12,540 nucleotides of DNA, from contig JAIDJS010000052.1 in the NCBI GenBank assembly GCA_029052085.1, positions 1-12,540 on the forward strand, in the 5' to 3' direction. The DNA comes from Eubacterium sp. (GTDB taxonomy: Bacteria > Bacillota > Clostridia > Oscillospirales > Acutalibacteraceae). The notes under the pieces are model-generated. The model worked only from the letters and a program-made list of their open reading frames with translations, was not told the origin of the DNA and did no database searches. Below are positions 10,542 to 12,540 of the stretch, in pieces; position 1 is the first letter of the stretch, and the number at the start of each line of letters is the position of its first letter. A program made the translations under genes and the position numbers.

Positions 10542-10865
10542 TTATTTGTTCTGAACAACAACGGCTGTTCCTGTTGCGATAACCATAATCATTCCGGCAT
10601 TGCCGAATGATTCATAGTCAATTTTAACGCCTACAACTGCGTTTGCGCCAATTTGTGCGGCCTTTGCTTCCATTTCTCTTAAGGCATTATTTCTTGCTTC
10701 AACAAGTTCTTCCTCGTATCCTGCGGATCTGCCGCCGATGATATTTCTTATTGATGCTCCGAAATCCTTAATGAAATTAATTCCTGCAACAATCTCGCCT
10801 GTTACAATACCCCTGTATTCAACAATAACTCCGTTTTCAAGGGTTGGGGTTGTTACACTGATCAT
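10542..10865 (-). CDS. YbjQ family protein (UPF0145, putative heavy-metal-binding domain)
   Basis: This 107-residue protein covers the full YbjQ domain: an N-terminal strand region ISVTTPTLENGVIVEY, then GIVTGEIVAGINFIKDFGASIRNIIGGRS, EEELVEARNNALREMEAKAAQIGANAVVGVKIDYE, and a C-terminal VIATGTAVVV strand. The family forms small oligomeric rings and is labelled heavy-metal-binding in domain databases from structural analogy; biochemical function is not established, and no Cys or His metal cluster is visible here. It is the last gene of the nfeD-paraslipin operon, 23 bp after the paraslipin stop, with a GGAG ribosome binding site. This position suggests a job linked to the SPFH membrane module. 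Confidence 0.9.
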   Translation of the reverse strand: MISVTTPTLENGVIVEYRGIVTGEIVAGINFIKDFGASIRNIIGGRSAGYEEELVEARNNALREMEAKAAQIGANAVVGVKIDYESFGNAGMIMVIATGTAVVVQNK

Positions 10866-10888: not shown

Positions 10889-11818
10889 TTATTTTTTAAG
10901 CACACCGTCAAGGCCTGATGCAAGGCCTGCAAGCGACTGAATTTCGCTTGGAATAATGATTTTTGTTGACTGTCCGTCTGCTGCCTTTGCAAAAGCTTCA
11001 AGTGATTTGATTTTAACAACAGCCTCTGACGGATCAGCCTCTTTAATCATTCTGATGCCGTCAGCTTCAGCCTGTTTGATCTTAAGAATAGCCTGTGCCT
11101 CACCGTCTGCCTCGCGGATTTTCTGTTCACGAACAGCCTCGGCGCGAAGAATTGCAGACTGCTTTTCAGCCTCAGCTTCAAGAATTTTAGATTCCTTAAA
11201 GCCCTGTGCTTCAAGAATACGGCTCTGCTTATCACCCTCGGCACGAAGAATAGCCTCACGGCGTTCACGCTCTGCCTTCATCTGCTTCTCCATGGAATCC
11301 TGAATTTCTTTTGGAGGAAGAATGTTTTTAAGCTCAACTCGGTTTACCTTGATGCCCCAAGGATCTGTTGCTTCGTCAAGAATAGAGCGGATTTTGGTGT
11401 TGATTGTGTCTCTTGATGTAAGTGTTGCGTCAAGCTCCATTTCGCCGATGATGTTACGAAGCGTTGTTGCAGTAAGGTTTTCAATAGCTGCAAGCGGAGC
11501 TTCAACACCATAGCAGTAAAGCTTCGGGTCTGTAATCTGGAAGAAGACAACCGTGTCTATTTTCATTGTAACATTATCCTTTGTAATAACAGCCTGCGGC
11601 GCAAAGTCTACAACCTGTTCCTTAAGCGAAACAATTTTTGCAATTCTTTCAATAAACGGAATTTTGACTTTCAGTCCGCCTGCTTCCCATGTGGCAGAGT
11701 ATCTGCCGAGTCTTTCAACAACATATGCTTTAGACTGGGGAATAACCTTGATATTTGCAATTCCGATAATGAGCAGTATAAGAACAAGTATACCGATAAA
11801 AATTAAAAATCCATCCAT
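10889..11818 (-). CDS. SPFH/Band 7 paraslipin (stomatin/QmcA-like)
   Basis: This 309-residue stomatin-like protein has an N-terminal membrane anchor at about 3-22. The SPFH/Band 7 domain covers about 23-170 and includes NIKVIPQSKAYVVERLGRYS, the TATTLRNIIGEMELDATLTSRD core and the WGIKVNRVELKNILPP end block. Residues about 175-260 form a highly charged helix in which an 11-residue pattern repeats about six times (186-251), as expected for the cage-forming coiled coil of SPFH proteins. The C-terminus ends in a short hydrophobic/glycine-rich IQSLAGLASGL segment. Family members form large membrane-associated cages and partner with NfeD-type proteins; the NfeD gene lies 15 bp upstream in the same operon. 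The ribosome binding site AAAGGAGA precedes the ATG. Substrates or clients are unknown. Confidence 0.95.
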   Translation of the reverse strand: MDGFLIFIGILVLILLIIGIANIKVIPQSKAYVVERLGRYSATWEAGGLKVKIPFIERIAKIVSLKEQVVDFAPQAVITKDNVTMKIDTVVFFQITDPKLYCYGVEAPLAAIENLTATTLRNIIGEMELDATLTSRDTINTKIRSILDEATDPWGIKVNRVELKNILPPKEIQDSMEKQMKAERERREAILRAEGDKQSRILEAQGFKESKILEAEAEKQSAILRAEAVREQKIREADGEAQAILKIKQAEADGIRMIKEADPSEAVVKIKSLEAFAKAADGQSTKIIIPSEIQSLAGLASGLDGVLKK

Positions 11819-11833
11819 AATAAAAAATCTCCT

Positions 11834-12271
11834 TTAAAATAAAATATTTTCATTAACTGATACAATCAGCTTAACGCCTTCTATTCTGAGCACATTAACC
11901 TTTGTGCCCGCGGAAATCGTTTCTCCGTTTTCACTACGTGCCGACCAGATTTGATTATCAACCTTAACCTGGCCCTTGGCATCAATGTTGGATATTTCCT
12001 CTGTTACAACCGCAAGCTTTCCGACATAACGGTCCGCATTGGTTTTGACACGCTCTGTTTTCAGCGATTTTCTTGCAAGCGGATAAATAATTGCAATCGC
12101 CGCAACTGAAACTGCGAAAAACAGGAAAATCTGTATCGCAATATTATCCGTAAAAAAGCTTGCTGCCAAAGCTGCAATGCCGCCAACTGCAAACCAGATT
12201 GAAAGAAGCTGTGCACTGAAAACCTCAACAACGATTGCAATTGCTATTACGGCAACCCATACCCAAATCAT
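11834..12271 (-). CDS. NfeD-like membrane protein with C-terminal OB fold
   Basis: This is a short, 145-residue NfeD family protein without the ClpP-like protease domain of long NfeD proteins. Three hydrophobic segments (about 2-20, 23-41 and 45-66) are followed by a basic linker KSLKTERVKTN and a soluble OB-fold domain (about 80-145) with the signature RYVGKLAVVTEEISN and IWSARSENGETISAGTKVNVL. The gene is paired with paraslipin in many bacteria, where the OB fold is thought to contact the SPFH partner. The ATG at 12271 has a perfect AAAGGAGG ribosome binding site. It is the first gene of the operon, and a candidate riboswitch and terminator lie between it and the only strong upstream promoter. 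Confidence 0.93.
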   Translation of the reverse strand: MIWVWVAVIAIAIVVEVFSAQLLSIWFAVGGIAALAASFFTDNIAIQIFLFFAVSVAAIAIIYPLARKSLKTERVKTNADRYVGKLAVVTEEISNIDAKGQVKVDNQIWSARSENGETISAGTKVNVLRIEGVKLIVSVNENILF

Positions 12272-12286
12272 CTGATAACCTCCTTT

Positions 12287-12377
12287 GATATTATTAGCGG
12301 TTTGTTTTCTGCTTAAGCATCAAAAAGTCGAAGCATATGTTTCGGCTCTTTAATATTTAAACATTGAAAAATTGTTT
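12287..12377 (-). other. AT-rich leader between attenuator and nfeD
   Basis: This is a 90-nt untranslated stretch between the leader terminator and the nfeD ribosome binding site. The only structure I see is an imperfect hairpin at 12326-12347, better paired on the + strand. No ORF or second promoter of note is visible. Confidence 0.5.
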
Positions 12378-12411
12378 AAAAAAACTCATATACGGAAGTC
12401 CGCATATGAGT
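12378..12411 (-). terminator. Leader (attenuator) terminator upstream of the nfeD operon
   Basis: On the - strand, ACTCATATGCGG (12411-12400) pairs with CCGTATATGAGT (12395-12384) as a 12-bp stem including one G-U pair, with an ACUU loop, then seven T. On the + strand the G-U becomes an A-C mismatch and there is no U-tract, so the element works only on the - strand. It lies about 105 nt before the nfeD start, so it must be read through for operon expression. Confidence 0.9.
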
Positions 12412-12497
12412 CTCATTCATTAAAACTTTGCCAGAGGCTTTCTTCCCGCGGTTGGTGACAAAAGTTCGCAATTTGATTTGTGGAATTACTCCCTCAA
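12407..12497 (-). promoter_or_regulatory. Candidate yybP-ykoY-like (Mn2+) riboswitch aptamer
   Basis: Read on the - strand, the leader fits the yybP-ykoY layout. P1 is UGAG (12496-12493) with CUCA (12410-12407). The motif GGAGUA (12492-12487) follows. P2 is AUUC (12486-12483) with GAAU (12418-12415). The second motif GAGA (12414-12411) lies directly before the 3' strand of P1. Inside, AACUUU (12466-12461) pairs with AAAGUU (12429-12424), with UGUCA after its 5' strand and GGC before its 3' strand, resembling the CGUCA...GGC of known members. Deviations are a short P1, GAGA where AAGA is usual, and UGUCA for CGUCA. The 3' P1 strand is shared with the terminator stem, the usual arrangement of a transcriptional ON switch. 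I consider the leader-type regulatory element likely and the class assignment moderately likely. Confidence 0.5.
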
Positions 12498-12507
12498 GGT
12501 TGGCTTA

Positions 12508-12536
12508 ATTATACCATAACGCTTCCGGTTTGTCAA
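12508..12536 (-). promoter_or_regulatory. Consensus extended promoter of the riboswitch-nfeD operon
   Basis: On the - strand there is a perfect TTGACA (12536-12531), a 17-bp spacer and a perfect TATAAT (12513-12508), with the extended -10 TGG at 12516-12514. The predicted start is near 12501, only a few nt before P1 of the candidate aptamer. Confidence 0.93.
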
Positions 12537-12540
12537 TATT

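Follow-up and report, generated by a model that had tools for sequence, protein, structure and literature searches.

We identify here a leader RNA that very probably (we put the probability at about 0.87) is a variant of the yybP-ykoY Mn2+ riboswitch with a three-way junction in place of helix P4 and controls an nfeD-SPFH-ybjQ operon by transcription antitermination. The leader is encoded upstream of nfeD on the minus strand and lies at the end of a contig of 12540 bases, the whole of which was analysed and is referred to below as the window. It extends over ~230 nt, reckoned from an inferred transcription start to the nfeD start codon at 12271. The elements of the locus, in the order in which they would be transcribed and with the genes last, are as follows.

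12508..12536, minus strand: sigma-70-type promoter, TTGACA-17 nt-TATAAT with extended TG (12/12 consensus)
12402..12501, minus strand: candidate aptamer domain, P4-less yybP-ykoY-type (match to covariance model R3, 60 bits, E 6.5e-12)
12493..12496, minus strand: P1.1 5' strand UGAG, putative switch helix, pairing with 12407-12410
12487..12492, minus strand: L1 5' strand GGAGUA, identical in 217 of 218 matches
12483..12486, minus strand: P1.2 5' strand AUUC, pairing with 12415-12418
12467..12482, minus strand: P2 hairpin CACAA/UUGCG, with one A-C mismatch in the window (double-sided changes in 5/5 pairs, alignment A4)
12457..12466, minus strand: P3.1 5' strand AACUUUUGUC, with one bulged U, pairing with GGCAAAGUU at 12424-12432
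12450..12456, minus strand: L3 ACCAACC, in which A12453 is the counterpart, matched by sequence, of the Mn2+-contacting A41/A48
12434..12449, minus strand: P3.2 hairpin GCGG/CCUC (GAGG/CCUC in 8 aligned relatives, alignment A1)
12424..12432, minus strand: P3.1 3' strand GGCAAAGUU, pairing with AACUUUUGUC
12419..12423, minus strand: 5-nt linker UUAAU where helix P4 would be (5 nt in 211 of 218 matches)
12415..12418, minus strand: P1.2 3' strand GAAU (motif-anchored pairing)
12411..12414, minus strand: L1 3' strand GAGA (GAGA in 177, AAGA in 25 and CAGA in 16 of 218 matches)
12407..12410, minus strand: P1.1 3' strand CUCA, common to P1.1 and the terminator
12378..12411, minus strand: intrinsic terminator ACUCAUAUGCGG-ACUU-CCGUAUAUGAGU plus U run, the putative expression platform (-16.9 kcal/mol)
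11834..12271, minus strand: nfeD, the first gene controlled (PF01957, 65.1 bits)
10889..11818, minus strand: SPFH/Band 7 protein, HflK-like (PF01145, 137.1 bits)
10542..10865, minus strand: YbjQ-family protein (PF01906, 124.3 bits)

An earlier note on this DNA had described a fully consensus extended promoter ahead of the leader, and the site at 12536-12508 is indeed the only one of 44 promoter-like matches in the window to score 12/12; by eye, a promoter can also be recognised ahead of the leader in relatives. The SPFH protein scores 110.3 bits against TIGR01933 (hflK), under the cut-off of 159.4. NfeD and SPFH genes adjoin in 9/9 named relatives. The YbjQ-family gene, probably the third of the operon, directly follows the SPFH gene in three of these nine and lies ~1.1 kb further on in a fourth, one of the nine stretches ending too early to judge.

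The nested pairings on which the earlier note had built its case, UGAG-GGAGUA-AUUC (12496-12483) with GAAU-GAGA-CUCA (12418-12407), are present, as is the inner helix formed by 12466-12457 and 12432-12424. P1.1 has only four standard pairs in the window, and the C at 12448 in P3.2 is specific to it (alignment A1). Neither helix P4 nor the four-way junction is found in the window leader, and the 5-nt linker in its place implies a three-way junction. When P1.1 and P1.2 are enforced, the aptamer fold has an energy of -12.1 kcal/mol, compared with -15.8 kcal/mol for the unconstrained fold. The predicted energy minimum of the leader RNA does not show the aptamer fold, and the structure proposed here therefore rests on comparison and not on energy. 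Energy folding yields chiefly the terminator.

The Rfam model of the class, RF00080, does not recognise this RNA. It was absent from the 16 Rfam matches obtained with cmscan for 12200-12540 at E<=10, and at E<=0.001 it matched 0/60 genomes, the window's own included, and 14 of 196 genomes of the class, none above the gathering cut-off of 45; these genome searches used a coarse first look with strict filters and are not proof of absence. On 20 loci that carry matches to our first model, R1, RF00080 gave a single match, of 15.4 bits. The E. coli mntP riboswitch (locus L335, 962-1058) scores 41.6 bits with RF00080 and thus also falls under the cut-off, so that the failure says as much about the model as about the RNA. 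For the same reason we rejected the argument that an RNA missed by RF00080 is not a yybP-ykoY RNA.

Three covariance models were used: R1, built from 15 sequences; R2, a refined model of 101 matches whose training included nfeD leaders; and R3, built from 90 matches in the class with no nfeD leader and no sequence from the genus of the window, its training rows having been selected with R2 and hence with a model trained partly on nfeD leaders. With R3 the window leader scores 60.0 bits (E 6.5e-12) and is the sole match in the 12540 bases at E<=10. The same model matches 9/9 further nfeD leaders given to it, at 54.7-69.2 bits. It also matches 16 loci that had been located with RF00080; two of these (L117 and L119) belong to the training set, which leaves 14/14 fair tests outside it, with scores of 24 to 65 bits. 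R3 also matches the mntP leader of E. coli, at 25.2 bits (E 0.0014-0.003), while the E. coli alx region (L336) gave no match with RF00080, R2 or R3, and at E<=1 R3 matched none of 32 control loci (20 nfeD loci lacking the leader and 12 SPFH loci). At the level of sequence profiles, the window leader is linked to accepted members of the yybP-ykoY class.

The core of the RNA is conserved among the matches. In an anatomy count of 218 rows, in which two places occur twice, the L1 strand GGAGUA is found in 217 opposite RAGA in 202 (12492-12487 and 12414-12411 in the window); the 5-nt linker count of 211/218 leans towards 5 because the models themselves have a 5-nt linker. In the model-fitted alignment, 21 of 23 pairs show double-sided changes. 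Pairing is possible in 94.7% of cells there, and sliding the partners lowers this to 27-50%. Pairings anchored on the motifs rather than on the model gave 94.4% for P1.2, against 65.4% with partners reshuffled, and 97.9% against 91.9% for P1.1, in 189 of 191 rows that had been found by model; examples of covarying helices anchored in this way are AUUC/GAAU, GCAA/UUGC and GUCG/UGAC, and P1.1 occurs in relatives as UGAG/CUCA, UAAG/CUUA and UGCG/CGCA. Covariation, a criterion for the class, supports P1.1, P1.2, P2 and P3.1. The earlier note had named two findings that together would count against its assignment, a failed search with RF00080 and a lack of conservation or covariation among related leaders; the first was observed even at E<=10, and the second was not, since GGAGUA is kept in 217/218 matches and P1.2 covaries.

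The putative metal-binding loop is conserved as well. According to PMC6754395, L3 reads UCA41AUUC in the L. lactis RNA (Llac) and ACA48UACU in that of X. oryzae (Xory), A41 and A48 contact Mn2+ by N7, and L1 contains an A-minor residue, A10. Letters matching the published L1 A10 and L3 are present in the window, where A12453 is preceded by C, and the window L3 would therefore carry the counterpart of the invariant Mn2+-contacting adenosine. Among the 153 rows scored with an 8-nt L3, the loop starts AACA, GUCA or GACA in 151, and C-A occupies its positions 3-4 in the same number; C-A is also present in 9/9 nfeD rows. A script scored L3 as 7 nt in 8/9 nfeD rows, the usual length elsewhere being 8; the ninth row is the window itself, whose loop is scored as 9 because of the P3.2 mismatch.

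Related leaders are common in the class. The four closest congeners carry a leader with 89-94% identity to that of the window, and within the genus it occurs in 9 species besides the window's own. When 98 genomes were searched at the DNA level, congeners yielded the nfeD leader, and weaker matches revealed another type of leader that stands ahead of a P-type ATPase. The exact nfeD-type pattern was found in nine named records, all MAGs labelled Clostridiales, Clostridia, Eubacterium, Ruminococcaceae or Oscillospiraceae. Matches to R1 were present in 91/295 genomes of the order and matches to R2 in 139/391 sampled genomes of the class. The genes downstream were counted for the 191 leaders (189 distinct) aligned in A4 and A5, a subset of all matches: MntP 77, P-type ATPase 73, Ca/Na exchanger 12, NfeD 9, ABC ATPase 7, HflK-like SPFH 3, oxaloacetate decarboxylase beta (OadB) 2, and 8 unclustered. 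The last comprise a TerC/Alx gene, one more SPFH gene, genes for a Na/Pi cotransporter and for a 474-aa protein that has no Pfam match, a TetR-type-like regulator and a 2Fe-2S-like protein (both judged by eye), and two leaders with no open frame found behind them. Representatives checked with Pfam and NCBIfam were assigned to Mntp, E1-E2_ATPase, Na_Ca_ex, TerC ('R_switched_Alx') and Band_7. Mn2+ riboswitches are known to control MntP, TerC/Alx and Mn2+/Ca2+ ATPases (in part PMC9495176). The association with genes of Mn2+ homeostasis is thus found among the relatives, the window's own target being nfeD; a second such leader, whose L3 has 8 nt, stands ahead of a P-type cation ATPase in the window's own genome (G000:C265, L014).

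Several of the matches merit separate mention. An ABC transporter ATPase, which to our knowledge is not a recognised target of such leaders, follows seven of them (L176, L177, L183, L187, L198, L225 and L234), and the beta subunit of oxaloacetate decarboxylase, a Na+ pump, follows those of L243, L248 and L274. Locus L029 has two leaders ~1 kb apart (425-567 and 1501-1611), one of them ahead of an SPFH gene and the other ahead of a Na/Pi cotransporter carrying a PhoU domain, and the leader at 208-308 of L060 precedes the 474-aa protein without a Pfam match. Two aptamers, apparently in tandem, lie 47 nt apart in L208 (133-229 and 277-369). The copy in L199 (160-257), whose L1 is damaged (GAGUA) and behind which no open frame of at least 80 aa was found, is perhaps a decaying duplicate.

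The earlier note had left open whether the RNA is a divergent member of the class or a sister class. A sister riboswitch would, at least in the nfeD type, whose L3 is shorter, use the same two-loop site for another ligand (e.g. Fe2+, Co2+/Ni2+ or Cd2+), and the 7-nt loop in 8/9 nfeD rows, where mostly 8 nt are found elsewhere, speaks for it, as do the genes downstream of the window leader, which are not exporters, and the annotation of YbjQ as 'putative heavy-metal-binding'. We nevertheless consider a sister riboswitch unlikely, because L1 retains its letters and L3 its C-A, relatives of the RNA precede mntP and in one case an alx-type gene, and L3 was likewise scored as 7 nt in 8 leaders of P-type ATPases. 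The core, the gene context and the match to R3 instead favour the first of the two readings, a divergent P4-less member.

Could the leader be a former Mn2+ riboswitch, retuned or decaying, that still terminates but switches no more? The P3.2 mismatch specific to the window, the P2 mismatch and the short P1.1 would fit such decay, as would a scattered distribution: nfeD is present in 71/80 genomes of the genus, yet the nfeD-type leader was found by DNA search in only 9/60 genus genomes, the window's own included, and by R1 in 10 of the best 30 nfeD loci from the 71 genus genomes with an nfeD match. However, core and terminator have been kept in 9 other species while the surrounding sequences diverged, and the window's R3 score of 60 bits falls within the 54.7-69.2 of the other nfeD leaders, so that decay seems very improbable. 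That an ordinary promoter and terminator (an attenuator) resemble the motifs by chance would accord with the failure of RF00080 and with energy folding that alone shows chiefly the terminator, but is made very unlikely, short of a shared artefact, by the match to R3 (E 6.5e-12), a model trained without nfeD sequences, by covariation, and by the related RNAs that precede mntP and P-type ATPases in many families.

Taken together, the results favour a P4-less Mn2+ riboswitch, and the arrangement of its 3' end suggests how it might act. The terminator hairpin spans 12411-12384 and is followed by a U run at 12384-12378; the earlier note had not counted it as part of the switch. Its 5' arm begins within the 3' end of the aptamer in 168/191 leaders (163 by a slightly different script). 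Shuffling the 100 nt downstream lowered this to a mean of 41.6 of 191, and swapping downstream sequences among leaders gave a mean of 159.7 of 191, a control that is only half informative because both parts are conserved. Since CUCA belongs both to P1.1 and to a strong terminator, an antitermination switch that is ON with Mn2+ is predicted. At low Mn2+, the nascent RNA would fold the terminator at 12411-12384 and transcription would halt. At high Mn2+, L1 and L3 would dock around one Mg2+ and one Mn2+ ion, with N7 of A12453 providing the soft contact to Mn2+; docking would keep P1.1 (UGAG/CUCA) closed and the CUCA arm barred from the terminator, and with the terminator blocked RNA polymerase could read through into the operon. 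In L. lactis, Mn2+ holds P1.1 and thereby allows read-through (PMC11087558). By analogy, the window leader would be an ON switch. Mn2+ is its likely ligand, and NfeD and SPFH proteins may have a role in the response to Mn2+ excess.

Three settings, distinct in lineage and in the type of gene, were observed in which this RNA precedes NfeD or SPFH genes. In addition to the nfeD operons, HflK-like SPFH genes that are orthologous (74-75% identity to that of L038) stand as the first gene behind the RNA in L038, L055 and L029, which represent three families outside the genus. In a further family (L245), the first gene behind the RNA is an SPFH gene 54.6% identical to that of the window over 280 aa. 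Among the best 30 loci of the order for the window's SPFH gene (209 genomes matched) only one, the window's own, carries the RNA, and among the best 30 loci for the other SPFH type (173 genomes matched) three do, a 12-bit match at L322 (E 1.7) having been left out of the count. These numbers point to occasional recruitment, not a rule. On the same grounds we rejected the idea that the RNA accompanies all nfeD and SPFH operons (10/30 nfeD, 1/30 and 3/30 SPFH loci, the best 30 in each case). In the family of G712, where 22/80 genomes were matched, no second SPFH target was present in the 27 R2 matches examined, all of which precede transporters save for one unassigned gene; two places occur twice among the 27 and one match comes from G058.

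What might connect these genes to manganese? FtsH is modulated by HflK/C-type SPFH proteins. In B. subtilis, high Mn2+ potentiates the cleavage of MgtE by YqgP, which is also an FtsH adaptor (PMC7231995). We speculate that an excess of Mn2+ calls for quality control of membrane proteins, which could be the logic of the link. More broadly, NfeD/SPFH membrane-scaffold operons may form a dedicated and recurrent limb of the Mn2+-excess response (HflK-like quality control or remodelling of membrane proteins), recruited to Mn2+ riboswitches several times, with the shortened metal loop of the nfeD-type RNA tuned to a different Mn2+ range; this is a tentative proposal to which we give somewhat less than even odds. 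A limited literature search found no publication tying NfeD or SPFH to manganese or riboswitch control.

The P4-less subfamily, unrecognised by the curated Rfam library, and its use before NfeD/SPFH genes are new. A compact form of the Mn2+ riboswitch appears to be common in the class Clostridia, and because the library misses it, the Mn2+ regulons of the class are probably undercounted. Looking ahead, we note that the P4-less form offers a way to test if docking and Mn2+ selectivity depend on the fourth helix, and that the SPFH/NfeD targets provide a genomic lead tying poorly understood membrane-scaffold proteins to Mn2+.

Comparison with known systems places the window leader close to, and yet apart from, canonical yybP-ykoY RNAs (RF00080; L. 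lactis yoaB, X. oryzae yebN, E. coli mntP). It has the same L1, GGAGUA/RAGA, the same invariant adenosine in L3 and the same order of elements, P1.1-L1-P1.2-P2-P3.1-L3-P3.2, and its relatives share their gene context; as in L. lactis, the switch helix P1.1 has a strand in common with the terminator. The L3 of E. coli mntP, AACAUACU, is that of 44/153 relatives scored with an 8-nt L3. By contrast, canonical members form a four-way junction with P4, and E. coli mntP has, by eye, an extra hairpin (GACUGAA...UUCAGUC) where the window has the 5-nt linker. At ~100 nt the window RNA is also far shorter than the 177-position RF00080 model, which does not match it; it stands before nfeD-SPFH, and its type of L3 is one nucleotide shorter than the canonical loop. 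Another Rfam family, RF02617 (SSRC10, Streptococcus sRNA 10), has a consensus with GGGAGuag, CGUC and gaGaCc and no helix between P3 and gaGaCc. It is filed as gene/sRNA and not as a riboswitch, and to us it has the look of a P4-less Mn2+ riboswitch; it matches the relatives L013, L023, L025 and L029 below threshold (22.8, 28.8, 36.3 and 37.5 bits against 56) and is absent from the Rfam matches to the window leader (12200-12540, E<=10). The closest parallel lies in the same genome, where the P-type ATPase leader (G000:C265) has the architecture, promoter and overlapping terminator of the window leader but an 8-nt L3, AACAUCAU, and longer P2 and P3.2 loops. Judged by sequence comparison, the case is strong for counting the window leader in the yybP-ykoY Mn2+ class, as a divergent member that lacks P4.
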